Positions 12,348-62,697 of a stretch of 64,000 bases of DNA are shown here, piece after piece. A program made the translations under genes and the position numbers. The notes below the pieces were generated by a model that searched no databases, was not told where the DNA came from, and saw only the letters and a program-made list of their open reading frames with translations. The number at the start of each line of letters is the position of its first letter. Within the stretch, counting starts at the first letter, position 1. Origin of the DNA: Streptomyces sp. NBC_00483 (GTDB lineage Bacteria; Actinomycetota; Actinomycetes; Streptomycetales; Streptomycetaceae). The stretch lies in assembly GCF_036013745.1 (NCBI RefSeq), contig NZ_CP107880.1:4340001-4404000 (forward strand), given 5' to 3'.

Positions 12348-13192
12348 CTCCCGTGGTCGCCGCGGCGGTGCTGCTCGCCGCGGTGACCCACGCCTCGTGG
12401 AACGCGCTCGCCCACCACATCACGGACAAGCTGGTCGGCTTCACGCTCATATCGGGCGGCGGAACGCTGATCGGCCTGGTGCTGGCGATATTCGCACCGC
12501 TCCCGGCGGCGGGTGCATGGCCGTACCTGGTGACGTCGGCCCTCCTCCACATCGCCTACTACGCCCTGTTGATGACCTCCTTCAAACTGGGCGACTTCGG
12601 GCAGGCCTACCCGATCGCGCGCGGCACGGCGCCGCTGGTGGTGACGGTGCTCGCGGCGGTCTTCGCGGGCGAGGTGCCGGGCGGCTGGCAGGCGGCGGGC
12701 GTCGCGGTGTCCAGCGCGGGCCTGACGGGCCTGGCGCTGTGGGGTCTACGGGGATCGGGGCGCAAGCCGGACTGGCGGGCGCTGGGCGCCGCGCTGGCCA
12801 CGGGGGTGTCGATCGCCTCGTACACGGTGGTGGACGGCCTGGGCGTACGGGCCTCGGGCTCCTCGCTCGGCTACATCGCGTGGCTGATGGTGCTGGAAGG
12901 GATCGCGGTCCCGGTGTACGCGGCGTATCGCTGGCGCGGTGAACTGGTGGAGCGGCTGCGGCCGTTCGCGTGGCGGGGCCTGCTGGGCGCGGCGCTCTCG
13001 GTCCTCGCCTACGGCCTGGTCCTCTGGGCCCAGACGCGGGCCGACCTCGCCCCGATCTCCGCGCTCCGGGAGTCGTCGATCATCGTGGGGGCGGCGATCG
13101 GCGCGATCTTCTTCAAGGAACGCTTCGGCGCGCCGAGGCTTTTGGCGGCGGGTGTGGTGGTGACCGGGATCGGCCTGATGCTGGCCCATTGA
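12344..13192 (+). CDS. EamA/DMT-family transporter
   Basis: A 282-residue inner-membrane protein with ten predicted helices in two EamA repeats (ending LLAAGVVVTGIGLMLAH). The family exports or takes up small metabolites such as amino acids; the substrate cannot be read from sequence. The ATG overlaps the stop of the deacylase gene. A longer in-frame start inside the deacylase gene was rejected because the hydrophobic first helix begins at MTPVVAAAVLL. Confidence 0.85.
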   Translation: MTPVVAAAVLLAAVTHASWNALAHHITDKLVGFTLISGGGTLIGLVLAIFAPLPAAGAWPYLVTSALLHIAYYALLMTSFKLGDFGQAYPIARGTAPLVVTVLAAVFAGEVPGGWQAAGVAVSSAGLTGLALWGLRGSGRKPDWRALGAALATGVSIASYTVVDGLGVRASGSSLGYIAWLMVLEGIAVPVYAAYRWRGELVERLRPFAWRGLLGAALSVLAYGLVLWAQTRADLAPISALRESSIIVGAAIGAIFFKERFGAPRLLAAGVVVTGIGLMLAH

Positions 13193-49313: not shown

Positions 49314-51584
49314 TCAGAGGGAGCCGTGGAAGGTGCGGTTGATGACGTCCAGCTGCTGCTCGCGCGTCAGGCGGACGAAGTTCACCGCGTACCCGGAGAC
49401 CCGGATGGTCAGCTGCGGGTAGTTCTCCGGGTGCTCCATGGCGTCCTCGAGCGTCGCCTTGTCGAGGACGTTGACGTTCATGTGGAAGCCGTCGCTGGCC
49501 ATGAAGCCGTCGAGCACGCCGGCCAGGTTGCCGATCCGCTCGCCGGGGGTGCGGCCCAGGGCGTCCGGGGTGATCGTGTTGGTCAGCGAGATGCCGTCCT
49601 CGGCGTCGTCGTAGGGCAGCTTCGCGACCGACAGGGCGGAGGCGATGTAGCCGTGCTCGTCGCGCCCGTTCATCGGGTTGGCGCCGGGGGCGAAGGGAGT
49701 GCCGGCGCGGCGGCCGTCCGGGGTGTTGCCGGTCTTCTTGCCGTAGACGACGTTCGAGGTGATCGTGAGCACCGACTGGGTGTGCACGGCGTTCCGGTAG
49801 GTCGGGTGCTTGCGGACCTTCTCCATGAAGCCGTGGACGATGCGCTTGGCGATCTCGTCGACGCGGTCGTCGTTGTTGCCGTAGGCCGGGTAGTCGCCCT
49901 CGATCTCGTAGTCGACGGCGAGGCCGGTCTCGTCACGGATGACCTTGACGTTCGCGTGCTTGATGGCCGAGAGGGAGTCCGCGGCGACCGACAGACCCGC
50001 GATGCCGCAGGCCATGGTGCGCAGGATCTCCTGGTCGTGCAGGGCCATCTCGATGCGCTCGTAGGCGTACTTGTCGTGCATGTAGTGGATGACGTTGAGC
50101 GCGTGGACGTAGGTCCTCGCCAGCCAGTCGAGCATCGCGTCGTACTGTTCGGCGACCGTCTCGTAGTCGAGGTACTCGCCCTCGATGGGTTCGAAGCCCT
50201 CCACGACCTGCTTGCCGGACTTCTCGTCGCGGCCACCGTTGATCGCGTAGAGGAGCGCCTTGGCGACGTTCACGCGGGCGCCGAAGAACTGCATCTGCTT
50301 GCCGACGGCCATCGCGGAGACGCAGCAGGCGATCGCGGTGTCGTCGCCGTACTTGGGGCGCATCAGGTCGTCGGACTCGAACTGGATGGCCGACGTGTCG
50401 ATGGCGACCTGGGAGGCGAAGTCCTTGAAGCCGCGCGGCAGTTCACGCGACCAGAAGACCGTCAGGTTCGGCTCGGGGGCCGGGCCGAGGTTGTAGAGCG
50501 TCTGCAGCGCGCGGAAGGTGGTGCGCGAGACGAGCGGGCGGCCGTCCTCGCCGATGCCGGCCATCGACCAGGTGACCCAGGTCGGGTCGCCGGAGTAGAG
50601 GTCGTTGTACTCGGGGGTGCGCAGGAAGCGGACGATGCGGAGCTTGATGACGAAGTCGTCGATGAACTCCTGGGCCTCGGACTCGGTGATCCGGCCGGCC
50701 TCGATGTCGCGCTGCAGGTAGATGTCGAGGAAGTTGTCGATGCGGCCGATCGACATGGCCGCGCCGTTCTGCTCCTTCACGGCGGCGAGGTAGGCGAAGT
50801 ACAGCCACTGGACGGCCTCGCGGCCGGTGCGGGCCGGGCCAGAGATGTCGTAGCCGTACGACATGGCCATGGCCTTGAGCTCGTTCAGCGCCTTGATCTG
50901 CTCGGAGATCTCCTCGCGGTCCCGGATGACGTGCTCGGTGGGCCAGGCGGCGCTGAGCTTGTCCTTGTCGGCCTGCTTGGCGGCGATGAGGCGGTCGACA
51001 CCGTAGAGGGCGACGCGGCGGTAGTCGCCGATGATGCGGCCGCGGCCGTAGGCGTCCGGGAGGCCGGTGATGATGCCGGAGGAGCGGCAGGCGCGGATCT
51101 CGGGGGTGTAGGCGTCGAAGACCCCCTCGTTGTGGGTCTTGCGCAGGTGGGTGTAGATCTCGCGGACCTCGGGGTCGGCCTCGTAGCCGTACGCGTTGAG
51201 GGCGCCCTCGACCATCCGCCAGCCGCCGTTGGGCATGATCGCGCGCTTCAGCGGGGCGTCGGTCTGGAGGCCCACGATGAGGTCGGTGTGATCGGCGGCG
51301 GTGCCGTCGATGTAGCCGGGCCGGAAGGCGTCGATGCGGGACGGGGTCTTCGCGTCGACGTCGTGGACGCCGCGCTCGATCTCCGCGGGGAACATCCCGA
51401 GGAGCTTGTCCCACACGGCAGTTGTGCGTTCGGTCGGTCCCGCGAGGAAGGAGCCGTCACCCTCGTAGGGGGTGTAGTTCTGCTGGACGAAGTCGCGGAC
51501 GTCGACGGCGTCCCGCCACAGCCCTCCCTTGAAGCCGTCCCAGGCCTCGCCGTGCGTCGTCTTTTCCGCGGGAGTGGCAGTCAT
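49314..51584 (-). CDS. pflB: Formate C-acetyltransferase (pyruvate formate-lyase)
   Basis: A 756-residue glycyl-radical enzyme that converts pyruvate and CoA to acetyl-CoA and formate. The two active-site Cys are adjacent at about 420-421 (AIACCVSAM), and the glycyl radical is Gly731 in [13 protein letters not shown], 25 residues from the end as expected. The enzyme is full-length. I use the ATG at 51584 (MTATPAEK). A Rex operator lies 186 bp upstream of this start, which would induce the gene when NADH accumulates at low oxygen. Confidence 0.93.
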
Positions 51585-51769
51585 CTGCGGCACCTTCCCC
51601 ATCTCTTCGACCGGTGGGTTGCTACGTGTTCATTGCACTCCTGCGGGGCTCGCCGGAGGGGCGGCAATGGTCCTGAGTTCAGGACCGTAGGGCCTTACTT
51701 CGGGCCGGAATCCGCTGGCACTTCCGGGGTGACCTGGGGTTTTCCTCGGGACTTTCGACCCATGTTCGC

Positions 51770-51787
51770 TTGTGAACGCATTCACAA
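51770..51787. promoter_or_regulatory. Rex redox operator upstream of pflB
   Basis: TTGTGAACGCATTCACAA, an almost perfect match to the Streptomyces Rex operator TTGTGAACGCGTTCACAA (17 of 18 bases), with one extra C/G pair at each flank. It lies in the 301-bp gap (51585-51885) between divergent pflB and ltrA. The rest of that gap shows nothing else that I can support. Confidence 0.88.
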
Positions 51788-51885
51788 GAAATGTGCCGGA
51801 TTTCCGTGGTACCGCGGGCTGCCGCGCACGTGCGGACTGCGTGCCGAATCCCCCACGGCACGGCCGGATCTGCTGGGGTGGGCGC

Positions 51886-52110
51886 ATGACGTCCACGCCA
51901 GACAAGCGCTCCCCGATCCGCCGCATGGTCGAGAGGGGGCGCGACGAGGAACACCGGGCCGCTTCACCGCTGGAGCTGTTCTTCGACCTGTGCTTCGTCG
52001 TCGCCGTCGCGCAGGGCGGGGCGGAGCTGGTGCACGCGGTCGCGGAGGGGCACTCGGGCGCCGGCGTGATCGACTACGCGCGCGTCTTCTTCGCGATCTG
52101 GTGGGCGTGA
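51886..52110 (+). pseudogene. ltrA: ltrA 5' fragment, split by the integrative element
   Basis: The 74-codon N-terminal part of a low-temperature-requirement A protein: RAASPLELFFDLCFVVAVAQGGAELVHAVAEG is the family's conserved first helix, and the fragment ends VFFAIWWA. The natural next codon would be TGG (Trp); insertion changes it to TGA at 52108-52110. The rest of the gene continues at 61737 after the element (WMNFTWFASAYDNDD). ATG 51886 is the first good start. LtrA proteins are eight-helix membrane proteins of unknown function. Confidence 0.9.
52100..52109. other. attL core of the ltrA element
   Basis: GGTGGGCGTG, identical to 61727-61736. Sequence to the left is ltrA coding DNA and sequence to the right is element DNA. 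Confidence 0.88.
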
Positions 52111-52171
52111 ACCAAGAGAACAACACCATACCGAAAGCCCCTGACCACGGGCTATACGCGAGCAGTAAGAA

Positions 52172-52208
52172 GCCCCGTCTACACACCGGGGGGATGTGCA
52201 GACGGGGC
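52172..52208. terminator. Stem-loop near attL
   Basis: GCCCCGTCT and its complement (9-bp stem, 19-nt loop). It is the outer of two hairpins that close the leftward small-gene pair near attL. Confidence 0.55.
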
Positions 52209-52214
52209 CTGACA

Positions 52215-52246
52215 CCTGTTCCGACCGTGGACCAGCCCGGAACAGG
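52215..52246 (-). terminator. Stem-loop directly after the DUF7848-like gene
   Basis: CCTGTTCCG and its complement (9-bp stem, 14-nt loop), starting 4 bp past the stop codon of the leftward gene. Confidence 0.62.
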
Positions 52247-52249
52247 GGC

Positions 52250-52471
52250 TTATGAGTGGACTACTTCGCCCACATCTTCAGTGACGCGCGAGAACCGGCT
52301 ATGTGCTTCCCCCTGCTGCTCTGCGTGGACCAGGCAGGCATCTTGGGCCACCTCAAGCTCAGCGGTAGGTCCAACGGACCATTTACAGCCGTTGGCCAGG
52401 CAGCGAGCCGTGAGCGTCATTTCGGACTCTGCCGCTCTACGAATCGTGCGCATGACGAAGCGGTAAGCCAC
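52250..52471 (-). CDS. DUF7848-like small protein
   Basis: A 73-residue protein, VAYRFVMRTIRRAAESEMTLTARCLANGC with a partner Cys further on and VHAEQQGEAHSRFSRVTED at the end. The layout (RTI start, Cys pair, H-x5-H-x-R-F near the end) matches small Streptomyces proteins I know as DUF7848, often beside XRE regulators. The GTG at 52471 lies 5 bp after the upstream stop, so the pair is coupled; ATG 52453 is an alternative. Function unknown. Confidence 0.62.
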   Translation of the reverse strand: MAYRFVMRTIRRAAESEMTLTARCLANGCKWSVGPTAELEVAQDACLVHAEQQGEAHSRFSRVTEDVGEVVHS

Positions 52472-52476
52472 TCGTC

Positions 52477-52698
52477 TCACAGCGCGTCGCCATCCGTGAT
52501 CCACTGGTGATCCATCTTCAGGTGCCGGCGTAGGCGTACGTTCAGGTCCGTTACGCGACTGCCGTTCCCGTTTGCCTTCGCATTGCGTCGTTCTCGGGTG
52601 AGCAACCGGCATGTCATGCATCCGTCTACGCCTTCAAGGTGCTCACTGCGGATCAGCGGAAGTTCCACGGGCGTTCCCTGCGTTGTGCTCGCCTGCAT
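52477..52698 (-). CDS. Small CxxC protein paired with DUF7848-like gene
   Basis: A 73-residue protein with LPLIRSEHLEGVDGCMTCRLLTRERRNA, a CxxC motif, and RVTDLNVRLRRHLKMDHQW, which gives a possible Cys2-His2 metal site. Similar small proteins are frequent next to XRE/DUF5753 loci in Streptomyces. It is first in a two-gene leftward unit divergent from the 52883 gene. Confidence 0.6.
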   Translation of the reverse strand: MQASTTQGTPVELPLIRSEHLEGVDGCMTCRLLTRERRNAKANGNGSRVTDLNVRLRRHLKMDHQWITDGDAL

Positions 52699-52882
52699 AC
52701 GTCCAACCCCCAGCGTCGCTGTCCCGTGTGAGGGAACCAGTCAAGGGCCGTTCGACTACTCGCTTCCATGAACTTGCACCGACTTGCACGCGCATGTCTT
52801 GGCAGGTGCCCTTGACCTATGGGCCTGAACAGTCAGGATGGCTATGCAAGTTCGAGCAAGCCACACACGGAGAGAGGCTGTC

Positions 52883-53137
52883 ATGTCGCTACGGTTCGTG
52901 GGCATTGACCCGGACACTGACCAAGACCACTGCCCAACTGTCTGGGCGGACGAAGAAGCGGGCGAACTGGTGCTACAGGGCTGGAAGGCGGGCCCTGAAC
53001 TGCGATCAGCGTGTGAGGCAAACACAACAGCCAACGGGCCGATTCCGGACAGCGAAGAAGTCATCAGGATTCCGGCGCGGATGGTGCCAATGATCAGGGA
53101 AGCGTGCAATGCAGTCGAGCGTTCCGCCGTTCAGTGA
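52883..53137 (+). CDS. Small acidic protein preceding DUF6879
   Basis: An 84-residue protein, MSLRFVGIDPDTDQDHCPTVWADEEAGELVLQGW. I chose the ATG at 52883 after GGAGAGAGG; an earlier in-frame ATG lacks a ribosome site. It overlaps the DUF6879 gene by 29 bp and forms a trio with the XRE regulator, an arrangement repeated many times in Streptomyces chromosomes (whiJ-like loci). Function unknown; it may act as partner of the regulator. Confidence 0.68.
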   Translation: MSLRFVGIDPDTDQDHCPTVWADEEAGELVLQGWKAGPELRSACEANTTANGPIPDSEEVIRIPARMVPMIREACNAVERSAVQ

Positions 53138-53624
53138 GCTACTGGCCAACACCAGAAAATCCGCTGTCCACTTGGAGATGCGTGACGACTACGGCGCCAA
53201 CCCCCGCCTAGAAGCCTGGCAGCGCGGAGAGCGCATCAACTGGGATGACCGTGAGACCTGGTGGCAACCGTTCCATCAGGTCATTGCGGATGCGGTCTCC
53301 CGCGGTGTCGTGATTCGCCGTGCCCGCATCGTCTCTGAGCCTGTCAGCGAGTACATCCGATGGGAGCACTACGCGACACATTCCAACGTCGTTGCTGGCG
53401 AGGATGTGCGCTGGCTCCCTCGCAGTCAGGCCGCCGGAATCCTGGTTCCTGTCAATGACTTCTGGCTGTTCGACGGGAAGCTACTGCGCATCCATCACTT
53501 CGCAGGGGACGGAAGCCACGTGCGCGACGAACTCAGCGAGAACTCAATGGAGTTGGAGCACTGCGCTGCGGCGTTTGAGGATATCTGGCAGCGCGCAGTT
53601 CCCCACGACCAGTTCAGCGTCTAA
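53109..53624 (+). CDS. DUF6879 family protein
   Basis: A 171-residue soluble protein, with FSELLANTRKSAVHLEMRDDYG at the start and WRRAR-like VVIRRARIVSEPVSEYIRWEHYAT in the middle, then DFWLFDGKLLRIHHFAGDG. These segments define the DUF6879 group found beside XRE-DUF5753 regulators. No enzyme motif is known to me. It overlaps the gene before and is 20 bp from the regulator after it. Confidence 0.72.
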   Translation: MQSSVPPFSELLANTRKSAVHLEMRDDYGANPRLEAWQRGERINWDDRETWWQPFHQVIADAVSRGVVIRRARIVSEPVSEYIRWEHYATHSNVVAGEDVRWLPRSQAAGILVPVNDFWLFDGKLLRIHHFAGDGSHVRDELSENSMELEHCAAAFEDIWQRAVPHDQFSV

Positions 53625-53644
53625 CACCAGCGGACATCCAACTC

Positions 53645-54490
53645 ATGCCGTCGCCATCCTCCCGCGCCCAAGAGGCGAGAGTAGCCATCGCCAGCCGGCT
53701 ACGGGACCTGCGACTAGATGCGGGTATCACAGCGCGCGAGTTGGCTGTCCGCTGCGACTGGAGCGAGTCCAAGTCTTCCCGAATCGAGCACGCCAAGACA
53801 CCCCCTAGCGACGCTGACATACGCGCCTGGTGTGCAGCGTGCGGGGTACCGGAGCAAACCGGTGACTTGATCGCTGCCAACAGGCAGGCAGATTCCATGT
53901 ACACCGCGTGGAAACGGCTACAGCGAACCGGTCTTAGGCGACTGCAAGAGTCGGGCGTACCCCTCTACGACCAGACACGACAGTTTCACGTGTACTGCTC
54001 GAATGTCGTTCCCGGATTCTTCCAAACGCCTGGCTACGCAACCGCGCTGCTGTCATCCATCGCCCGGTTCCGCGGTACGCCTGACGATGTGTCAGATGCA
54101 GTCGCGGCGCGCATGGCCCGATCAGGCGTCATCAGAGAAGGTGACCACCGGTTCGCCGTGCTGGTGGAAGAGTCTGTATTGCGGTACCGGATCGGAAGCC
54201 CAGAAGTCATGGCCGCTCAGCTAGGCCACTTGCTGTCAGTCATGGCGCTCCCTTCGGTCTCCCTGGGGGTCATCCCGTTCGCAGCACCCCGTGAGGCGTG
54301 GCCGCTGGAAACGTTCACTGTCTTTGACCGTCAACGGGTGCACGTCGAAACGCTGGCAGCCTCCATCAAGGAGACTCAGCCCAGTGAAGTTGCCCTATAT
54401 CTCCGGGCGTTCGGCAACATGAAGAGGGTTGCCGTCTATGGAGCGGATGCACGGTCCTTGATCACGTCTGCCATTGACGCACTGACCTAG
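53645..54490 (+). CDS. XRE-family regulator with DUF5753 domain (WhiJ-like)
   Basis: A 281-residue regulator with an N-terminal XRE helix-turn-helix (RLRDLRLDAGITARELAVRCDWSESKSSRIEHAK, about residues 18-51) and the C-terminal DUF5753 domain (VPGFFQTPGYATALL, then VPFAAPREAWPLETFTVFD). This is the domain pattern of WhiJ and related developmental regulators. In an element it may control the element genes or interact with host development. The start has no clear ribosome site. Confidence 0.85.
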   Translation: MPSPSSRAQEARVAIASRLRDLRLDAGITARELAVRCDWSESKSSRIEHAKTPPSDADIRAWCAACGVPEQTGDLIAANRQADSMYTAWKRLQRTGLRRLQESGVPLYDQTRQFHVYCSNVVPGFFQTPGYATALLSSIARFRGTPDDVSDAVAARMARSGVIREGDHRFAVLVEESVLRYRIGSPEVMAAQLGHLLSVMALPSVSLGVIPFAAPREAWPLETFTVFDRQRVHVETLAASIKETQPSEVALYLRAFGNMKRVAVYGADARSLITSAIDALT

Positions 54491-54606
54491 CTGACCAACC
54501 GTCTACGTCGGGAGGACTGGCCGCGCATCGTCCACCGTGGTCACTGGCGCGCTACTCTCTGAAGTACCTGATGGCTTCAGGTGATCCACAAGGTTGGAGT
54601 CCGTAG

Positions 54607-55272
54607 ATGGACGAAAAAACCCTCGCCCTCATCGCCATCGTTGTCTCAGTCCTCACCGCCGTGGGCACGCTCATCTATACGCATCAACAGATGAAGGCGG
54701 CCAAGAAGGCTAATGCGCTGGCCGAGCAAGCCCAGCGAGAACAGGTACTGCCCTATGTGATCGCGGATATCCGAGAACGAGTACCAGGGTCGCAACTTCT
54801 CTGCTTTTTCATCGAGAACAGCGGACCGACAGTGGCTCGTGATGTTCAGCTATCTGTTGAACCTCCCCTACGTTCCGCTCTAGGGGAAGAAACGGCAGCC
54901 AAGCTGAACGAAGCCGTAACGCGTAAGATTTCTGTACTCCCCCCAGGTCGTAGCCTTATGTACCTGATGGACGTTGGAAATAGGCTGTTCAAATCAGACC
55001 TACCTCGCCAATACACGGTAGTAGTGAACGCTTCAGGGCCATTCGGCGCCGTCGAGACATTGACCTACACAATTGACCTTGAGGTATTGAAGGCTTCACT
55101 CCTGAACAGAGAGTCACTGGAGTGGAGCACGCACGTAATAGCTGAAGAGTCGAAGAAGGCCACGAAGGCTCAGAAGGAACAAGCAGAAATCTTGGAGAAA
55201 CTGTTCCGCACAGCTTCAGAAAGAATCGCATCGAACTCATCCGATGATGGCACGCCAGAGATTGAGCCGTAA
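54607..55272 (+). CDS. Membrane-anchored protein of unknown function (cargo candidate)
   Basis: A 221-residue protein with one N-terminal membrane helix (LALIAIVVSVLTAVGTLIYT), a short coiled segment, a beta-rich middle (VLPYVIADIRERVPGSQLLCFFIENSGPTVARDVQLSV) that looks like an immunoglobulin-like fold, and a C-terminal coiled coil with repeated Lys/Glu. It has lower GC than the flanking genes. No known family recognised. Being monocistronic between the regulator and the structural block, it is a candidate accessory or exclusion gene. Confidence 0.65.
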   Translation: MDEKTLALIAIVVSVLTAVGTLIYTHQQMKAAKKANALAEQAQREQVLPYVIADIRERVPGSQLLCFFIENSGPTVARDVQLSVEPPLRSALGEETAAKLNEAVTRKISVLPPGRSLMYLMDVGNRLFKSDLPRQYTVVVNASGPFGAVETLTYTIDLEVLKASLLNRESLEWSTHVIAEESKKATKAQKEQAEILEKLFRTASERIASNSSDDGTPEIEP

Positions 55273-55309
55273 GCGTCAAATCAAAAAGCCTGTCATCCTG
55301 CGGGGCCTG

Positions 55310-55522
55310 CTACTCGGTTTCAGCCCAGTCTGTCACACGCCGGTCATGCTCGGGTACTTGAAAAGACTCGTCACCGGAATGCTTGGCGAACTGTCGCCTG
55401 GAACACGCAGAAAGGAACGCCTTACGGTCGTCGTACGGGATTTCCCAGAGCGGCCGGCATAGTTCTTCATCGCTGAGGAGCATGAAGGCAGCAACACCGG
55501 CAACGTGGTTAGTGGTCATCAT
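55310..55522 (-). CDS. Possible small protein after the capsid block
   Basis: A 70-residue frame, MMTTNHVAGVAAFMLLSDEELCRPLWEIPYDDR, with GAGAG ten bases before the ATG. It lies between the terminator at 55544-55568 and the convergent cargo gene. Coding potential is moderate and no family is recognised, so it may not be real. Confidence 0.4.
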   Translation of the reverse strand: MMTTNHVAGVAAFMLLSDEELCRPLWEIPYDDRKAFLSACSRRQFAKHSGDESFQVPEHDRRVTDWAETE

Positions 55523-55543
55523 TCACTCTCAAGACATAAGAAA

Positions 55544-55568
55544 GCCCCGGCCAGCAAGTGACCGGGGC
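55544..55568 (-). terminator. Terminator of the structural block
   Basis: GCCCCGGCCA and TGACCGGGGC form a 10-bp stem with one mismatch and a 5-nt loop, 112 bp after the HNH gene stop in its direction of transcription. Confidence 0.65.
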
Positions 55569-55679
55569 ATAGAACGGGCCGAACCTGTCCGCGCAAAGCT
55601 TTCAAGCTGCGGCGCTAGTTTTTTCCCTCCCTGCCGCGCTTCTGTGGGGCGGGGAGGGGGTCACCCCCCAGGGGGTGGG

Positions 55680-56123
55680 TCAGAACGGAGGCTCATCCGT
55701 CCGCGCGTCATGCTCCGCTGTCCAGCGCTGCCATTCACGTTGAGCCTGTGACTGCCTCTGCCGCTCAGCCACGACACCACCAGCCTGGTTACGGCCTGTC
55801 TCACGGTTATGGCAGCGGACGCAGAGTGCTCTTAGGTGTTCATGCGCGTTCGGATCAGCAACACCACGCTTGACCAGTTCCTTGCGACTCAATGGCCAAT
55901 GGTCAGCGACACGCGCGGACTGGCGACACAGAACACACCACGCATTCTGATACAGGAATGACTCACGCTTCCGCGGCCATTCCTTTCCGTATGCGCTGGT
56001 CCCCTTCTCGGCACGTCGTGCAGTCAGCATGTGTATGTGATCAGCGCATGCGCGCTCTCTCCCGGCGACCAGGTTCGGACAGTTGGGTGTGGCCGTACAT
56101 CTGCGGCGGGGCAGGTAGGGCAT
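55680..56123 (-). CDS. HNH endonuclease, phage type
   Basis: A 147-residue HNH nuclease. Two N-terminal Cys (RRCTATPNCPN) are followed by CVLCRQSARVADHWPLSRKELVKRG (first His of the DHxxP loop) and HEHLRALCVRCHNRETGR (final zinc and HNH residues). Phage HNH proteins of this type often work with the large terminase in cleaving packaged DNA. Here it lies just downstream of the capsid gene, and no terminase is found. Confidence 0.85.
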   Translation of the reverse strand: MPYLPRRRCTATPNCPNLVAGRERACADHIHMLTARRAEKGTSAYGKEWPRKRESFLYQNAWCVLCRQSARVADHWPLSRKELVKRGVADPNAHEHLRALCVRCHNRETGRNQAGGVVAERQRQSQAQREWQRWTAEHDARTDEPPF

Positions 56124-56183
56124 GGGGCTCCTTCGGGCGATAGGGGTACGCCGGCTGGCAGGGAGCCCCTAGATACACCAATG

Positions 56184-56231
56184 GCCGGGTAGCTCCCCCT
56201 CGAAGTCCGGCAAACAAGGGAACTACCCGGC
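56184..56231 (-). terminator. Strong stem-loop after the capsid gene
   Basis: GCCGGGTAGCTCCC and GGGAACTACCCGGC pair over 14 bp with one mismatch and a 20-nt loop, starting 13 bp after the capsid stop codon. Confidence 0.75.
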
Positions 56232-56244
56232 TAGGCGCTAGCGA

Positions 56245-57081
56245 TTAGCCAGCGGCATTGGTGATGCGGACATGGGCCGCAGCAACCGGCATACCGAAAG
56301 CGACTCGCATAGTGCCTCGCACAGCAACACGGTCAGACGAGAAATATGCCGAGCGGTCAACGTCAAGGCGTGTGTCCTCACGGGTCACCACCAGGAAGTC
56401 ATCCTTGCTGATGCCGTAAACGGTGTCCGCCGGAACGTACGGGCTGACAATGATCGGCCGGCCAAGGATGGTTCGCCGACCATCAGCGGTCAGGTCCGGG
56501 TTTAGAAGCGCCTTGTTGGAACCGGTCGCATCCTTGAGCTTCGCAATCTCAAGGGCCGTGGCAGCGCCGGTAACCCAAGACGTGATCCGTCCCCCGGCAG
56601 CCTCAGACTTCGAAATGGCCTCTTCGAACGGGTCAAGGTTGGCGTAAGTGACCGGGGCCGCAACCGTAGAAATGCCCGCCAGCGAAGCGAAGCCGGATGG
56701 ATTAGGGGAGGCCAGCGCGTTGAACAGCGCGTTATCAACGTGGTTGGCAATCATCCGCGCGATGCTCCGGCCAATCTGGTCGGTCGCAGAAGGGTTGGAG
56801 TCATCGGCAAGTTCACGGCTGATGATCGTGAGGCCAGCGAACTTAGCCGGAGTGACCACCAGCTCATCAAGGTCAGCGTCGGAAGGAGCGATCTCCGCAC
56901 CCTCAGCAACAGCGCCACCGGTCACATCAGCCGCGAGAATCGGGATTCGATAGTCGTGCGACTTCGTGAGAATCTTTGTGCCGGTCAGGTAGGCCACAGA
57001 AAGAGCCTCAACGGGCTTCGTGACAATCTCCCCGTACTCCGGGGGTAGAACAGCACCGTTGGCAGGCGTAAGCATGGTCAT
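56245..57081 (-). CDS. HK97-type major capsid protein
   Basis: A 278-residue capsid protein. It begins MTMLTPANGAVLPPEYG. The E-loop and P-domain region reads KSHDYRIPILAADVTGGAVAEGAEIAPSDADLDELVVTPAKFAGLTIISRELADDS, a very typical phage_capsid pattern, and it continues RMIANHVDNALFN and LGRPIIVSPYVP, then VRGTMRVAFGMPVAAAHVRI at the end. There is no delta or protease domain at the N-terminus, which agrees with a separate scaffold. AAAGGA before the ATG at 57081 fixes the start. It is the third main gene of a leftward structural block. Confidence 0.9.
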   Translation of the reverse strand: MTMLTPANGAVLPPEYGEIVTKPVEALSVAYLTGTKILTKSHDYRIPILAADVTGGAVAEGAEIAPSDADLDELVVTPAKFAGLTIISRELADDSNPSATDQIGRSIARMIANHVDNALFNALASPNPSGFASLAGISTVAAPVTYANLDPFEEAISKSEAAGGRITSWVTGAATALEIAKLKDATGSNKALLNPDLTADGRRTILGRPIIVSPYVPADTVYGISKDDFLVVTREDTRLDVDRSAYFSSDRVAVRGTMRVAFGMPVAAAHVRITNAAG

Positions 57082-57302
57082 GCTTGAATTCCTTTGCGTT
57101 TGGGCATGGGCGCGGCGAATGGCCAGCGCAATGAATGGGGCCCGCTGCACCTGGCAGCACGGGAAAGCGGGCGCCTGGCCCAAACGTGAGAAAACCGCCG
57201 CCCACCTGGGGCACTAGCGGTTCCTCAGAAGGCATCTACGGGAATTGGTAGATGCCTATTCAGTTGTGTGAGGGGGTGGGGGAGTTGGCGCCCCCACCCT
57301 CC

Positions 57303-57761
57303 CTACCGGCCCTTGAACTGAAGCGCGTCTTGCATCCTCAAAGGGCCGGCCGCTACTTCGCGTCGACCGCCGCCAACATCACCCCAGGGAGCGGAGCCAT
57401 TGCGGAGACCAGGGCGCTTATCTAGGAGCGCTGCTACTGCGGCATCAACCGCATCCGGCATGACGTTCCCTTCCGGGTCGGTCAGGTCATCGATGTTGGC
57501 TCCGCCAATTTCGAATAGATCAGCGCCAACGGCGAGTTTGCTTGCTGCGTGTGCCTCAATTTCCTTGCGGAGTAGGGCATTTACGCGGGCTTCGTAAGCA
57601 TCTAGCTTCGTCTCAGCCTCGCGCAGCTTCGTTCGGTACTTGGCCGCTTCTCGGTTGCCTGAAGCCCCTTCACCTGACGCGCTGCCAGTTGGGTCAGCCG
57701 GCGGAGGAGCATCGGGATTCTGTTCGGGATTAGCCTCGGCGGGAGTTGGAGCCTCAGCCAT
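57303..57761 (-). CDS. Scaffold-like protein
   Basis: A 152-residue acidic protein. It has a Pro/Ala/Glu-rich disordered start, a central coiled coil (REAAKYRTKLREAETKLDAYEARVNALLRKEIEAHAASKL, about residues 38-77) and a short C-terminal tail. This layout and its position directly before the capsid gene are those of phage scaffolding proteins. Its ATG overlaps the stop of the upstream gene by 8 bp. Confidence 0.75.
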   Translation of the reverse strand: MAEAPTPAEANPEQNPDAPPPADPTGSASGEGASGNREAAKYRTKLREAETKLDAYEARVNALLRKEIEAHAASKLAVGADLFEIGGANIDDLTDPEGNVMPDAVDAAVAALLDKRPGLRNGSAPWGDVGGGRREVAAGPLRMQDALQFKGR

Positions 57762-58011
57762 TGGCCTGCACCCCTTCGTCGTAGACGTGCGTCAGGAGGT
57801 GGGTCGCTGGCGCGTGCCGGACGTATGCGACGACGTCCACAGCAGTCACGGTGTCGCCGTAGAAGTCGCGCATTTCCGCTTCGTTGAGAAAGAGCGCCTG
57901 AGACAGCGCAGAAACAGGAAGGCGAGTATCCGGCGCGCTGCGGGCTATCGCTGTAACGATCTGACAGGCGGCAAACTGACTGTCTGCCACCTCAGCAAGA
58001 AGAGACTTCAA
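57754..58011 (-). CDS. Small protein of the capsid block, unknown
   Basis: An 85-residue protein (MKSLLAEVADSQFAACQIVTAIARSAPDTRLP) from a TTG start with AAAAGGA eight bases before it. Predicted mostly helical. It overlaps the scaffold gene by 8 bp, so it is translated with it. No family recognised; position suggests a role in head assembly or regulation. Confidence 0.6.
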   Translation of the reverse strand: MKSLLAEVADSQFAACQIVTAIARSAPDTRLPVSALSQALFLNEAEMRDFYGDTVTAVDVVAYVRHAPATHLLTHVYDEGVQANG

Positions 58012-58267
58012 GGTATGTGTCCTTTTCGATATTCCTCCCGCCGCTCAACTGGCCCAGGACACGGAACCCAGGAGCGGCGAGGGAAGAATGTGAGCCCACC
58101 CCTGGAAGGCATCGCGCCTGTGCGACCGCAGGGGTGGGAACATGCGGGTGACTAATCCCGCGTTGGAGTACGGGCCATGCCTAGCCCTAACCGCCGATGC
58201 CTGTCAGCGGAACTTGTGACCACCTACGGATTTCCGTAAGTGGTGAGGCTGTTCTGGGACCCATCCA
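58012..58267. other. Non-coding gap with a 10-bp stem-loop
   Basis: Between the microprotein gene and the 85-residue gene I see one stem-loop, CCCACCCCTG and its complement at 58095-58104 and 58129-58138 (24-nt loop), without a T-tract. It could be a terminator, an RNA processing site or part of the promoter region for the capsid genes. Confidence 0.45.
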
Positions 58268-58354
58268 TCAAATGACCCCCGCCGCCCGGTAAACCAGTGA
58301 GACCAGGAATGCCAAGTTGAATAGCTCCGCGGCGAAGTAGAGACGCGTCATCAT
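58268..58354 (-). CDS. 28-residue membrane microprotein
   Basis: The ATG overlaps the stop codon of the HNH gene (ATGA), so it is probably translated by re-initiation. The peptide starts MMTRLYFAAELF and continues with a strongly hydrophobic stretch (NLAFLVSLVY) to the end, one membrane helix. It is too short for most gene finders. It could be a small holin-like or exclusion peptide, or a chance frame; the exact overlap favours a gene. Confidence 0.5.
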   Translation of the reverse strand: MMTRLYFAAELFNLAFLVSLVYRAAGVI

Positions 58355-58830
58355 CGGCTGTCAGCCCGCTTGGCGTACGCACTGACTAGCCGGCTGTGCG
58401 TTGCGCGCTCGACTTCTAGTGACACCTTGCCGTAGCGGCGCCCTAGCGTTTCCCGCGCGGCCAGGTACCTATGGGCAGCGAGCGCACTGGCTTCACGGGC
58501 CGTGGCTTCCGTGTAGCGCTGTTCGTGGTCCACAGCGAGATACGCGGCCTTAATGAGGGGTGCGCACTCAGCTTCCAGCCCCTCTATGCCGACACGGCGG
58601 TAAGCCTGGTCGTACTTCCTGTGACAACTACGGCACATGGCCACGTAGTTGGAAGTGTTCTCGGACCAGACTCGCTTGCCTGCGTGCTGCTCGTTAGGGT
58701 CCGTGCCCCAGCGGTAGGCCCAATCGGACGCCGTGCGCAGACACCAGGCACAGTTGTGGTACTTGGCCGGGAGTCGCAGCCTGTCTAGCGTCCGGTGGAT
58801 GCGGTGGTACGCGGATTCGACAGAAGTCAT
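58351..58830 (-). CDS. HNH endonuclease, phage type
   Basis: A 159-residue HNH nuclease. CAWCLRTASDWAYRWG is the first zinc pair, and NYVAMCRSCHRKYDQAYRR holds the second pair and the Asn and His positions. The C-terminal half is a long helical region. This is the first gene of the leftward structural block. I chose ATG 58830 (MTSVESAYHR); an in-frame ATG at 58902 lies inside a large hairpin. In phages this nuclease type often lies near the cohesive end site. Confidence 0.8.
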   Translation of the reverse strand: MTSVESAYHRIHRTLDRLRLPAKYHNCAWCLRTASDWAYRWGTDPNEQHAGKRVWSENTSNYVAMCRSCHRKYDQAYRRVGIEGLEAECAPLIKAAYLAVDHEQRYTEATAREASALAAHRYLAARETLGRRYGKVSLEVERATHSRLVSAYAKRADSR

Positions 58831-59408
58831 GTCGGGAAGTCTTTCGCTGGGGGTGCAGGAATGACTAAAGGCCCGACCCAGGGACTCAGCATGACTAGGC
58901 ACCCCTGCCAGTCATGCGAGTCAACCCGGATCGGGCCTCTAGAGAGTGCGGATTAATGCCCCCGCACGGGCGTTCATGGGCGGGCCTCATCAGGGGTGCG
59001 GTCCGCTGGGCAGGCTACCTATTGGTGCCTACAAAGGTATCTAGTGAGTCGATTGCCTTCTGAGGCTTAAAACGCGAGATTCTGGCCGGGTCGCTGAATT
59101 CCGTTACGCGCTCGTTATCGTTGGCGTAGGTGAACAGCGGAAGATTCGCGCGTACACCCCACCTGACCTGCAAGAGTGCAGGAATGTAGATTTGAGGTTC
59201 GTTTCGGTAATCGACTAGAGAACTCTATGCTTTATCTGAAGTGGGGGTCGAAAATACACAACTGCACTGGGGTTGTGTTTACGCAGGTCAGAGCAGGTGT
59301 AGCCGACGGGCTGTCAGGTACGGGTGTGTAGTTTCGCTCCGTCCGCTGACTGGCTCCACCTGGCGCAGCGTCAAGAACGGCCGTAGGGGCCTCTGCGGGC
59401 ACAGAAAG
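58831..59408. other. Long non-coding region of the element with a nested hairpin
   Basis: No convincing gene lies here. The main structure is a nested set of inverted repeats at 58869-58938: AGGCCCGA/TCGGGCCT outermost, then GACTC/GAGTC, then CATGACT-A-GGC/GCC-AGTCATG around a 6-nt loop. Smaller stems are CCTGCA/TGCAGG near 59168-59183 and ACACAAC/GTTGTGT at 59256-59278. The promoter of the structural block should be here. Confidence 0.6.
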
Positions 59409-59439
59409 GCCCCGCCTGGCCAAGGGGGTCAGGCGGGGC
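59409..59439 (-). terminator. Terminator after the 124-residue gene
   Basis: GCCCCGCCTG and its complement form a 10-bp stem with an 11-nt loop, 40 bp after the stop codon. Confidence 0.68.
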
Positions 59440-59479
59440 TGTGGGGCGCCCAGGTGGGCACTGAGGGGGTTTCCGTGGG

Positions 59480-59854
59480 CTAGCCGGCCAAAGCCTCCGG
59501 GTGGCCTTGCAGCGCGGCCATGATGGCTTCCAGTCGCTCCGTACGCTGCCGCAGAAGGGCCGATGGCCCCTCGGCTACCTGTCGGGCGTACAGGCCGTTG
59601 AGCGTCCGTTCCAGGCGCTTGAACTCGCACTCCCGGTAGAACGCTGCTTCTTGCTCTTCCAGTTGCTGCGTGATCCGTTCACGGGTGGACGCTCTGTCTT
59701 CCGTGCTCTGTGTCGTGTTGGGCCACTCGTCGCGAAACGCGTTCATGTGGCTGCCCTGGTGGTCAGCGGGTAGTGCGCACGCGAGGCTGTTCCGGCCAAT
59801 CGGGGGGCGTTGCTGGTATCCCGGTCGACGTGCAGAGCATGACTGCTGTGACAT
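59480..59854 (-). CDS. Hypothetical element protein downstream of the integrase
   Basis: A 124-residue protein with an N-terminal Cys/Arg-rich stretch (MSQQSCSARRPGYQQRPP, CALPADHQGSHMNAF) and a C-terminal coiled coil (ERITQQLEEQEAAFYRECEFKRLERTLNGLY). The ATG at 59854 has AGAGAGG before it; the upstream in-frame ATG was rejected. Being next to the integrase, it could be its recombination directionality factor, but no motif shows this. Confidence 0.6.
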   Translation of the reverse strand: MSQQSCSARRPGYQQRPPIGRNSLACALPADHQGSHMNAFRDEWPNTTQSTEDRASTRERITQQLEEQEAAFYRECEFKRLERTLNGLYARQVAEGPSALLRQRTERLEAIMAALQGHPEALAG

Positions 59855-59881
59855 CCTGGTGTTCCTCTCTCCGATGAGGGG

Positions 59882-59924
59882 GCACCGGTCCGGTACTTCC
59901 GCCAAGTCGTGGCCGGACCGGTGC
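59882..59924 (-). terminator. 12-bp inverted repeat after the integrase
   Basis: GCACCGGTCCGG and its exact complement with a 19-nt loop, 20 bp after the integrase stop. It could end the integrase transcript. Confidence 0.68.
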
Positions 59925-59943
59925 AGTTCTGATTCCCGCCTGA

Positions 59944-61623
59944 TTAGGCGGATGTCTTTGCGTTCGCCCATGCATCCCAATAGGCGTCTATTGCGGGATT
60001 CCCGCCCTGATCTCTCCAGTCAGGGTCAAGGCGGTCCATGATTGGTGTCGTGTCGCCTACGCACTTCGGGGGCAGCAGGGTCACCTTCTTGAGTGCTGCC
60101 TGAAGTAGTGCACGCTGCCCCTCGATACCGGCCACGTTCCACAGGGCGGCAAGCCCTTTAGGGTCCATAAGCGGCGAGAGATCAGCCTCTAGGGAGAGTT
60201 CGGCAAGCTCAGCCTTCAGTCCGCTGATCTGTCCGGCGAGTTCGGCACGAAGCGCTTCGTATTGGGCTTCTTCCATCCCACCGCCGATGAAGAACTCTTT
60301 CTGAAGCCGGAGTTCCCTCGCTGCCGCATTGTCCAGCGCTGCCCCTACTGCTCTCTTGCGCGATTCCTTGGCAGGATCCTGATAGGACAGCCAACGGCGC
60401 GCGATGGCCCGAAGGGTGGGTGATTCAGGCGTAAGGCTGAGGATGTGATTGATCCACATCACTGACATTGCCTCGTCAGCACGTTCCCGCAGTGTGGCAG
60501 CCCCCGCGCACACCGATGGCCCTTGGTTGATCCGGGCTATGCAGCGGTAGTTGCGTCCGCCGTTCCCCATGGCTCCCTTGCAGTACGGGCACCGCAGGAT
60601 TCCCGTAAGGATGGTTGCCGCCTTTCGCTTGCCGCGGCTTCTGTCGCCGATGGCTGTACCGGGGCGGGACCGGGCAGTGAACTTGGCCAGGATGACAGCG
60701 CGTTCAGCGAAAGTGATGACTCCTTCGCCAGCTCTAATCGGGTGTCCGTCGACTCCCATTAGGGGATTCCCGCCACGGTGCCACTTGTCCAGCGGATTAC
60801 CGAACTCATCCTTTGCGCGCTCACGGTCCGGGATTAGCCCTGCCCAACTCGGGGACTGCGCAAGGTGAATGATGGTCTGCGCGCGCCATTGCTTGCCCTT
60901 GCGGGTCTTGATCCGCTCACTGTTCAGGGCTTCGGCAATAGCGGCCGGCGTGTCACCGTCCATCAACGCTTCGGCAATGCGACGCGCTGTCGGGTACTCC
61001 TTCGGGTCGTGTTCCAGCTTCCCGCTCCCCTTGGGACAGCGCAGACCGAAAGGCACCACTCCACCGGGCCAGCGACCTTCAGATTTGTGGGCGTCCCCAC
61101 CTGTCTTAGTCCGCAGCGCAATATCTTTGGACTCTTCACGTGCCCGCTCGCTGAGGATGGCGAAGACCATCCGGGAACCCTTCGACGAGTCAAGCCCCTC
61201 GGTCGAACTGACCAGGCGTGCGGAACGCTTGTCGAATTCGTCCAGCAAAAGACCAACCTGCCCCATGCCACGGCGGGAAAGTCGGTCGGTCTTCCACACA
61301 TAGAGCGTCTTGCTGAGTCCATCAAGGACAGCAGCAGTCGCTTTCTCAAATTCCTCGCGCCGGACATGTGCCTTGCTCGCGCTTCGCTGCTCGAACCAGA
61401 GGCGACGGATGTGCTTTCCATCGGCAGCAGCCGCACGGGATACATCCCGCACATGCGCCCGGAGGGTTGCCAAGTCGTCGCGCTTCTTGCTGCGTCTGAT
61501 GTACGCCTCTGCCAAGTCAGCAGGGCCGCCGGTTCCTGGCTCCCAGAGCCCAAGCCGCTGGAGCTCTTCGTCCTCGAAGCCCAGCGCTCTCAGGGTCGGA
61601 AGATCATCCCGTTCCATGGTCAT
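59944..61623 (-). CDS. int: Large serine recombinase (integrase)
   Basis: A 559-residue serine integrase that joins attP and attB without host factors. The catalytic Ser45 lies in YIRRSKKRDD, and DRLSRRGM (Arg114, Arg117) forms the active-site arginine cluster; the recombinase domain follows (GGVVPFGLRCPKG, about residues 183-290). A zinc-ribbon with four Cys (RCPYCKGAMGNGG, CIARINQGPSVCAGAA) lies at about 345-375, and a coiled-coil motif about 430-480. The protein looks intact. It starts 103 bp from the attR core and reads inward, as usual. The rebuilt attP has strong dyad symmetry. Confidence 0.93.
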   Translation of the reverse strand: MTMERDDLPTLRALGFEDEELQRLGLWEPGTGGPADLAEAYIRRSKKRDDLATLRAHVRDVSRAAAADGKHIRRLWFEQRSASKAHVRREEFEKATAAVLDGLSKTLYVWKTDRLSRRGMGQVGLLLDEFDKRSARLVSSTEGLDSSKGSRMVFAILSERAREESKDIALRTKTGGDAHKSEGRWPGGVVPFGLRCPKGSGKLEHDPKEYPTARRIAEALMDGDTPAAIAEALNSERIKTRKGKQWRAQTIIHLAQSPSWAGLIPDRERAKDEFGNPLDKWHRGGNPLMGVDGHPIRAGEGVITFAERAVILAKFTARSRPGTAIGDRSRGKRKAATILTGILRCPYCKGAMGNGGRNYRCIARINQGPSVCAGAATLRERADEAMSVMWINHILSLTPESPTLRAIARRWLSYQDPAKESRKRAVGAALDNAAARELRLQKEFFIGGGMEEAQYEALRAELAGQISGLKAELAELSLEADLSPLMDPKGLAALWNVAGIEGQRALLQAALKKVTLLPPKCVGDTTPIMDRLDPDWRDQGGNPAIDAYWDAWANAKTSA

Positions 61624-61726
61624 CCATCCGCCGTAGGTGTCCGCCTCTGCGGGGACTTCAAGCGGGTGGATTGCCTAATCGAGGCATTTCCGCAGGTCAG
61701 AGGCGGTGTTGCACCCTTGGCTCACA

Positions 61727-61736
61727 GGTGGGCGTG
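61727..61736. other. attR core of the ltrA element
   Basis: GGTGGGCGTG, identical to the attL core at 52100-52109. The ltrA frame resumes here, and the base after the core is G, so that the split TGG codon is restored on excision. Confidence 0.88.
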
Positions 61737-62697
61737 GATGAACTTCACCTGGTTCGCCTCGGCCTACGACAACGACGACGCGCTCTACCGCCTGATCACA
61801 CTCGTCCAGATCGCGGGCGTGCTGGTGCTCGCGGCCGGGGTCTCACAGGCGTTCGCGCACGACAACTACATGGTGGTCTGGCTGGGCTACCTGATCATGC
61901 GGGTCGCCATGGCCACGCACTGGCTGCGGGCCGCAGCCTCCACCACGGGCGCCGAGCGCCGGGTGGCGCTGCGGTACGCGGGCGGGGTGCTCGCCTGCCA
62001 GGTCGGCTGGCTGGCGCTGCTGTTCACGCCCACGGCGGCGCAGGGCTGGGTGTTCCTGGCGATGGCGATCCTGGAGATGTGTGTACCGGTGTACGCGGAG
62101 CGGGACCGGCAGACGTCCTGGCACCCGCACCACATCGCCGAGCGCTACGGCCTGTTCACGATCATCGTGCTCGGCGAGTCGATCGCCGCGGCGACGGTCG
62201 CGGTGAAGTCGGGCATCGAGGAGAACGACGCGCTCGGCGAGCTCCTGCCGATCGCGGCCGGCGGCCTCCTCGTCGTCTTCGCCGCCTGGTGGATCTACTT
62301 CGCGGTGCCGATCCACGACCGGCTGCGCAGCAACCGGCAGGCGTTCGTATGGGGCTACGGCCACTTCTTCATCCTCGCCTCGGCGGCATCGATCGGCGCG
62401 GGCATCGAGGTCGCCGTCGAGCAGGCGGTGGGCGAGGCGCACATCTCCACGACCGCCGCCTCCGCCGCCGTGACGGTCCCGTCCGCGGTGTTCCTGCTGC
62501 TGGTGTGGGCGCTGCACTCGCGGTACTTCAAGGTGGGCGTCGCACAGAAACTGGCGTTGCCGGTCAGCGCGTTGCTGGTGCTCCTGTGCACGTTCGCGGG
62601 GCACTGGGCGGTGCTCGCGGCGGGGATCGTCGCGGCGCTCACGGTGGTGGTCGGGGTGACGCTGTCCTCGCGGACGGGCGAGGCGCAGCCCGCCTGA
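61737..62697 (+). pseudogene. ltrA: ltrA 3' fragment, split by the integrative element
   Basis: The C-terminal part of the LtrA membrane protein (WMNFTWFASAYDNDDALYRLITLVQIAGVLVLAAG, about seven helices). Joined to 51886-52109 at the core, the frame is uninterrupted and gives a protein of about 394 residues, normal for the family. ATG 61738 could allow a truncated product, but it has no ribosome site. An apparent long frame entering from the antisense strand of the integrase is not a gene. Confidence 0.9.

Follow-up and report, generated by a model that had tools for sequence, protein, structure and literature searches.

The ltrA element of Streptomyces sp. NBC_00483

The stretch of DNA analyzed here (the window) covers 64,000 nucleotides of Streptomyces sp. 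NBC_00483 (contig NZ_CP107880.1, positions 4,340,001 to 4,404,000). Its ltrA gene is interrupted by an element of 9,627 bp, which lies between two exact 10-bp copies of GGTGGGCGTG and encodes a large serine integrase, regulators, two HNH nucleases, a scaffolding protein, and a major capsid protein of the HK97 type. Gene content, a cos site of Rowavirus type, and recurrence of the gene set in other genomes point to a satellite that depends on temperate cos phages of Rowavirus type as helpers; it probably forms a shell from its own capsid and scaffolding protein and leaves packaging at cos to the helper.

When the flanks are joined without the element, a continuous LtrA reading frame results. 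With the joined flanks as query, uninterrupted ltrA was retrieved from other Streptomyces (best match in genome G059, bases 23–424 of 431, 85%); some match was obtained in 106 of 121 genomes, a number of these matches being short. The strain's own genome (G000) holds the query in two parts only (1–226 and 217–431), the overlap being the core. The GC content is 60.7% in the element and 69–73% in the flanks. The 10-bp core in ltrA that a first-pass annotation of the window had proposed as the border is borne out by the joined frame and the uninterrupted gene elsewhere: the serine-integrase element is bounded, is inserted in ltrA, and has an empty site in other genomes. Loci compared with it are designated L and a number; G260 is the genome of L032.

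Gene content

From the integrase end, the minus strand encodes the integrase, a 166-aa protein, HNH2, an 85-aa protein, the scaffolding protein, the capsid protein, HNH1, and a 70-aa open reading frame (ORF). The plus strand, named from the HNH1 side, carries genes for a 221-aa protein, a helix-turn-helix (HTH)/DUF5753 regulator, a DUF6879 protein, and an 84-aa protein, and a DUF7848 gene lies at the far end on the minus strand (Table 1). The integrase, regulators, scaffold, HK97 capsid, and two HNH genes assigned in the first-pass annotation all have family matches, which are clear for HNH1 and weaker for HNH2. The cos site, the structured leader, and the small ORFs are additions to it. HNH1 also weakly matches the small-terminase family phrog_4581 (E 0.004). 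The HTH regulator is a candidate repressor with the DUF6879 protein as its possible partner, and the position of the 166-aa protein makes it a candidate recombination directionality factor. Regarding a defence role of the variable slot, PADLOC gave no match among the window proteins tested, the 221-aa protein included, and one match for an L034 protein. Rfam models gave nothing at the gathering threshold over positions 51500–62500.

No portal or terminase gene was found in the element by protein family scans, in the ORF lists, or in genome searches with three portal families (phrog_12, phrog_104, and PF04860) and one large-terminase family (phrog_2). The entry for phrog_104 is itself named portal, and we take phrog_12 to be a portal and phrog_2 a terminase family. 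Since phrog_2 did not match the large terminase (TerL) of L067, although BLAST detects that protein, family searches alone were not trusted; the BLAST references designated 'portal105/106' are TerL-type proteins. Family scans of the element's proteins likewise gave no head maturation protease, no tail or lysis gene, and no replication gene (primase/rep) of the kind expected in PICIs (phage-inducible chromosomal islands) and P4-type satellites; the sister locus L039 does carry a primase. The complete head, tail, and replication sets of a Rowavirus are not present, and the absence of terminase, portal, protease, and tail genes noted in the first pass held throughout.

Table 1. Features of the element and of the interrupted ltrA gene (positions in the window)
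Feature	Position	Strand	Evidence
ltrA 5' part, interrupted host gene, ends in core	51886..52109	+	joined ORF
Attachment core copy 1, GGTGGGCGTG	52100..52109		exact 10-bp repeat
DUF7848 protein, 123 aa	52250..52621	-	PF25232 4.6e-6; relatives in L034, L037
Conserved small protein, 84 aa, upstream of DUF6879	52883..53137	+	86% in L033, 46% in L045
DUF6879 protein	53109..53624	+	PF21806 8e-52
HTH_31/DUF5753 regulator	53645..54490	+	PF19054, PF13560; dN/dS 0.07
221-aa protein, hydrophobic N-terminus, variable slot	54607..55272	+	phrog_9607 3e-5
70-aa ORF	55310..55522	-	partly conserved in L033
cos site, Rowavirus type (predicted)	55591..55643	-	motif 55608-55636; phage-end equivalent between 55628 and 55627
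HNH1 nuclease	55680..56123	-	phrog_589 2.7e-13; Nesbitt, AbbeyMikolon, Rowa 51-52%
Major capsid protein, 278 aa, HK97 fold, no delta domain (predicted)	56245..57081	-	PF05065, phrog_10, TIGR01554; model
Structured leader before capsid gene	57082..57302	-	hairpins at 57132-57256
Scaffolding protein	57303..57761	-	phrog_4708 1.5e-5; C-terminal PWGDVGGG motif shared with Rowa scaffold
Conserved 85-aa protein, overlaps scaffold start	57754..58011	-	relatives in L032, L033, L034, L040
HNH2, HNH-like nuclease	58351..58902	-	phrog_8446 9.1e-5 (weaker than HNH1); relatives found
166-aa protein overlapping integrase stop	59480..59980	-	relatives in L032, L034, L040, L124, L125
Large serine integrase, 559 aa	59944..61623	-	PF00239, PF07508; Rowa integrase 43% over 96%
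Attachment core copy 2, GGTGGGCGTG	61727..61736		exact 10-bp repeat
ltrA 3' part, interrupted	61737..62697	+	PF06772 1.5e-79

Capsid and scaffolding proteins

The capsid protein matches PF05065 (1.9e-28), phrog_10 (3.9e-30), and TIGR01554 (4.8e-32). The alignment to TIGR01554 begins at model position 108, and the protein is predicted to be without the N-terminal delta domain of HK97 gp5; its length is close to that of the cleaved (mature) gp5. The lack of a delta domain and the short length are consistent with a scaffold encoded separately and with the absence of a protease. Modelled with AlphaFold2, the protein has the HK97 fold (pLDDT 83). Its best match in the PDB is HK97 prohead II, and the shells of SaPI1 and of EcCI2 (9gyi), a capsid-forming phage-inducible chromosomal island (cf-PICI), are among the listed matches. 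From the genome length, we assume a shell of about T=3. All named frames of the element are open, and the ratios of nonsynonymous to synonymous substitution rates (dN/dS) were 0.14, 0.17, 0.15, and 0.06 for the capsid gene (four pairs), 0.11 for HNH1 (one pair), and 0.28 for the scaffold gene. Thus the genes, described as intact in the first pass, are so, and those for capsid and HNH1 are under purifying selection.

A total of 239 capsid relatives were found. Of the 120 listed, the first 46, among them the capsid of NBC_00483 itself, are at least 58% identical, 38 of these with a Streptomyces name; among the matches listed, those below about 54% identity belong to other Actinomycetota and metagenomes. 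Of 50,697 phage records, 31 match the capsid. The 12 nearest are records of Mycolicibacterium aichiense of 10.9–11.1 kb, and the other 19 reach at most 30.7%. An alignment-based scan of viral contigs gave 17 loci, 16 of which lie on contigs of 5.1–13.5 kb and one on a contig of 32 kb, and plasmid records held five weak relatives, all below 31%. In the capsid tree, the short Streptomyces capsids of the type found in NBC_00483 (not those of L039 and L040) group in a single clade (13 rows, support 100/100); outside it, three rows sit on very long branches. As an observation apart, one viral contig of 13.5 kb contains a pair of short capsid genes separated by about 9 kb, in a tandem-like arrangement (L056:2967-3812 and 12055-12900).

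The scaffolding protein is 34% identical to the Rowa scaffold over 95 aa. Its C-terminal WGDVGGG is present in Rowa, the NBC_00483 element, L032, L034, L035, and L038; variants occur in L033 and L037 (WGDVGGN or WGDVGAG) and in the Rowa-type phage contig L127 (WGEVGGG). The motif is altered in L040 and absent from L039, L057, WillG, and L101. Among the satellites compared, those with the motif are those with HNH1. We infer that the C-terminal end meets a part of the helper, most likely the portal.

The leader between the scaffold and capsid genes is conserved in L032 (9778-10000), L033 (9839-10000), and L034 (9778-10000). It is predicted to form three hairpins, in which eight pairs are changed on both sides in four sequences; none of 500 shuffles scored as high, the structure having been derived from the very sequences tested. 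The hairpin with the CAGG loop seems to recur in L040. The leader possibly controls translation of the capsid gene.

A packaging site of the Rowavirus type

The best listed matches of HNH1 among the phage records are those of Nesbitt, AbbeyMikolon, and Rowa (51–52%), all of which are encoded at the right genome end. In the sister loci L035, L037, and L038, HNH1 is followed by a small terminase (TerS) gene, and the best listed phage match of the L035 TerS is the TerS of Rowa (57%), encoded at the left genome end. Because the relatives of HNH1 and TerS sit at opposite ends of the phage genomes, the phage ends were compared with the DNA following HNH1. In Rowa as in AbbeyMikolon, the genome ends at CGGCAGGGA|GG. 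In the NBC_00483 element, L032, L033, and L034, CGGCAGGGAGG occurs with a matching right arm after it; the cos motif of the NBC_00483 element is CGGCAGGGAGGGAAAAAACTAGCGCCGCA, read on the minus strand from 55636 to 55608. Alignment scores with the Rowa genome-end junction were 63 for the NBC_00483 element, 77 for L032, and 91 for L034, and none of 200 random Rowa windows scored as high. For the AbbeyMikolon junction, the control windows scoring as high numbered 0 (NBC_00483 element), 0 (L032), 2 (L033), and 1 (L034) of 200. The junctions of Chymera, SF1, and phiC31 were unlike the site in the NBC_00483 element, whose scores were equalled or exceeded by 114, 182, and 164 of 200 control windows, respectively; the Chymera junction scored with L038 (1 of 200), but at a location far from the L038 HNH1 gene. 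The integrase also has its best listed phage match in Rowa (43%, the next listed phages at about 28%), and a stretch of 427 bp of its gene is 67% like Rowa DNA.

An unbiased blastn of 141 bases of the cos region against phages aligned bases 1–39 with Rowa at E = 5, which is not significant alone; an exact-pattern scan is the better test. In 2.9 million viral contigs, the motif matched nine times, in each case beside a Rowa-like TerS (69–91%) and TerL (83–95%). On the opposite side, five of these contigs encode a Rowa-type HNH protein and two a fragment of one; the other two, without an HNH match, stop at most about 430 bases from the site. The motif was present in 5 of 392 Streptomyces genomes, its reversed control in 0 of 392, and none of 100 shuffles of the window contained it. 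The five genomes are G000, G260, and three new ones (loci L124, L125, and L126), all with satellites that have HNH1 and HNH2 relatives. The four satellites without a detected TerS (NBC_00483 element, L032, L033, and L034), together with L124–L126, carry the Rowa-type cos, whereas the three with a TerS of their own (L035, L037, and L038) carry a different site. By these comparisons, the element carries the predicted packaging site of its helper type.

Recurrence of the gene set and exchange of cassettes

Full-length short capsids were found at nine Streptomyces loci (the window, L032–L035, and L037–L040; L040 ends 118 bp past the capsid, and the fragments L046 and L047 were excluded). Of the 36 genomes with capsid matches, wider contexts were available for 18 and ORFs were listed for 14, with L050, L103, and L104 outside the ORF lists. 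Within the stretches read, none of the nine loci has a portal or TerL gene; weak portal/TerL family matches in the genomes of L034 and L035 fall outside those elements. HNH1 is present in seven of the nine, absent from L039, and not visible in L040. Boundaries were obtained for L034 (9,056 bp, 13-bp core, in a PhoD-like gene), L037 (9,450 bp, 7-bp core, in a methyltransferase-like gene), L039 (9,203 bp, in a GNAT-like gene), and the viral contig L057 (9,053 bp, at tRNA-Val), the names of these protein-coding genes being readings of the sequence rather than results of family scans. The same reduced gene set at similar size, for which the first pass had suggested a search, is found in other genomes, three of them Streptomyces with elements of 9.06–9.45 kb. 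Beyond the range of 9.05–9.63 kb are the capsid-less L125 (spacing of 10,076 bp) and L097 of mycobacterial type (11,270 bp). No convincing pair of attachment (att) sites was found for L032, L033, L040, L124, and L126. Repeats spaced 9,843 bp apart in L038 were rejected as att sites, being palindromic, and a size of 9,519 bp for L035 was not adopted, as the remnant of a second integrase leaves the end of this element ambiguous.

Blocks have been exchanged between these elements. The NBC_00483 element shares the capsid/HNH blocks but not the integrase with L032, the regulators and capsid with L033, and the integrase and capsid with L035. Judged from these loci, the reduced gene set recurs with other integrases, at other sites, and at similar size, and is not a one-off deletion.

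L124, L125, and L126 share HNH2 (31–34%), HNH1 (78%, 42%, and 83%), and cos with the NBC_00483 element, and the first two also share the regulators and the 166-aa protein family. Where scaffold and capsid would be, they carry small genes that match no family (171, 98, and 97 aa in L124); these are candidates for resizing shells and may act on heads. Between L032 and L126, identity is 79% along 1.5 kb at the integrase end, 92% along 536 bp at HNH1–cos, and 74% along 439 bp at the opposite end, and the genes in the middle differ. The scaffold/capsid cassette thus appears to be exchangeable on a common chassis.

Two further observations concern other islands and the element ends. A second lineage (L042, L043, L044, L045, and L096) comprises small Streptomyces serine-integrase islands with a capsid protein of 389–452 aa, whose listed genes include neither TerL nor portal; relatives of the HTH and DUF6879 proteins occur in L044 and L045, and an HTH protein in L042. 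Long imperfect repeats are present at the ends of L125 (3242-3632 and 13318-13708), L039, and L035, as if the element had brought a diverged copy of part of the entered host gene (nth-like, again a name read from the sequence, and GNAT-like).

Comparison with known systems

The first-pass annotation had called the element possibly undescribed, which holds in part. Capsid-encoding satellites are known (cf-PICIs and MulchRoom/MiniFlayer; PMC10690885). A report of 2023 described mycobacterial candidate PICIs, phage-like regions with integration genes and a major capsid gene, some of which also have a serine integrase and scaffold genes (PMC10654092). In slow growers, these candidates are said to correspond to phiRv1/phiRv2 (PMC10654092). 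Their definition asks for integration machinery and a capsid gene in a region that DNA similarity does not mark as a defective prophage. Integrase and capsid gene are both present in the NBC_00483 element, the DNA likeness to a phage noted here being the 427-bp integrase stretch, and the likeness to the candidates is one of description; the candidates are mycobacterial, and the part of that report available to us demonstrates no helper and describes no cos (PMC10654092). In the open literature, judged by titles and the beginnings of abstracts and with preprints and most subscription journals outside, no Streptomyces satellite with a capsid but without terminase and portal was found.

The M. 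aichiense records (OR387110-OR387121) have related serine integrase, HTH, scaffold-like, and capsid genes; the capsids of the 12 records are 31.6–32.7% identical to that of the NBC_00483 element, and the scaffold matches in the two records opened. Unlike the NBC_00483 element, these two have a short terminase gene, an adaptor, a stopper, and a tape measure gene, and neither has an annotated portal. They were deposited as phages, and the label satellite is our reading. The cf-PICIs resemble the element in having their own HK97 capsid, structurally matched in EcCI2, and an HNH nuclease in the packaging module. According to PMC10690885, their genes include those for portal, protease, and connectors and for the two subunits of the terminase. 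None of these were found in the element, TerS being present in the sisters L035, L037, and L038. According to the same source, MulchRoom and MiniFlayer are Streptomyces satellites with their own capsid and scaffold and no obvious replicase, but TerS, TerL, and portal genes are present in them, and their terminal repeats measure about 1 kb; MulchRoom has a tyrosine integrase, MiniFlayer no lysogeny module, and their helpers are virulent phages (PMC10690885). EfCIV583 is described as being without capsid genes of its own (PMC3675006); further satellite literature was drawn on (PMC6893505, PMC11389934). Rowa (NC_047906.1) shares with the element the cos, an HNH gene near the right end, a related integrase, and the scaffold tail, but is a full 42.9-kb phage with terminase, portal, and tail.

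Discussion

The element is genuine and intact, and it belongs to a family of capsid-encoding satellites that recurs in other genomes and for which a helper type can be named. Helper dependence is suggested by the missing genes together with the shared cos. In the proposed cycle, the serine integrase would insert the element into ltrA, and the neighbouring small protein probably helps excision. Upon helper infection, the element would be released and, since no replication gene was found, copied by the helper. Its capsid and scaffolding proteins, whose genes are present, with a predicted fold and under selection, would form a small shell, and the scaffold motif shared with the helper scaffold may let this shell take the helper portal. 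Helper terminase and HNH1 would cut satellite concatemers at the shared cos, and helper connectors and tail would complete the particle.

Several results weigh against this proposal. Neither a Rowa-type TerL nor a Rowa-type prophage was found in the strain's own genome. An apparently complete siphovirus prophage of about 37 kb lies about 28 kb beyond the window (G000:C1 4,432-4,469 kb, L048 and L049; capsid and portal matched, the other genes, including a large terminase and a tyrosine integrase, read from ORFs). It was rejected as helper: compared with the element, it yielded nothing beyond short matches in blastn (best E 0.23) and short, patternless pieces in tblastx, and the search for a Rowa-type TerL found none. 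It differs from the prophage in G260 (putative TerL 24% identical). The deposited phage ends were taken as physical ends. The match of L033 to the Rowa junction is weaker (score 36, 4 of 200 windows as high), L035, L037, and L038 do not match it (35, 98, and 190 of 200), and L039 has no HNH1, no detected TerS, and no cos motif. A single-sequence capsid scan of viral contigs gave no relative. No similarity is detectable between the capsid and that of Rowa, and the use of the helper portal is for this reason a guess. Wider relatives (L067, L070, and L099–L101) carry TerL; a portal was shown in L067, L070, and L101, and an ORF of portal size is present in L099 and L100. L094 also has a portal and L093 a portal fragment. 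Among distant short-capsid elements, a primase and a match to a TerS family occur in L089, and a TerS relative in L056 and L058. The absence of TerL and portal is accordingly a property of this branch and not of all relatives.

Descent from a prophage that lost its portal, terminase, and tail genes was the alternative weighed in the first pass, where the satellite was favoured. Capsid, scaffold, and HNH are phage genes, and capsid fragments alone in two genomes (G085:C91 and G194:C39) indicate that decay occurs in the genus. But the same core set at different sites and with different integrases, the intact frames, purifying selection, similar size, swapped blocks, and the Rowavirus-type cos make decay very unlikely and uphold that preference. 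It is also very unlikely that the element is a minimal virus able to sustain itself or encodes a storage compartment resembling a capsid: the capsid protein does have the short length of the mature HK97 shell protein, which needs no protease, but no portal, packaging motor, tail, or lysis gene was found in the element, and a storage compartment would have no use for a phage cos. Within the satellite explanation, capsid and scaffold might mainly spoil or resize helper shells, the element travelling in largely helper-made capsids. L124–L126, if mobile, would mean that an own capsid is dispensable for the chassis, since they share HNH1 and cos without this type of capsid. Capsid and scaffold travel as a pair, though, the capsid is under constraint, and its lack of recognizable relationship to the Rowa capsid makes coassembly less likely; we regard this mixed or decoy role as improbable.

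A satellite of Rowavirus-type phages with a shell of its own remains the best explanation. There is about an even chance that it represents a third satellite design, in which only the shell is replaced and is fitted to the helper's portal, motor, and tail through the scaffold end and a helper-identical cos, with a cassette exchangeable for an unrelated capsid-less one and a cos that tracks the possession of an own TerS. Such elements fill a gap between satellites that shrink the shell of the helper and those that make a whole head, and they raise the question of how a foreign shell accepts the portal of another virus. Through the shared cos, a family of satellites and a helper phage type that can be named form a concrete pair, and one chassis with two cassettes would permit a side-by-side comparison of head strategies. 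Streptomyces genomes may hold many such elements, possibly missed by satellite finders built on other gene sets.

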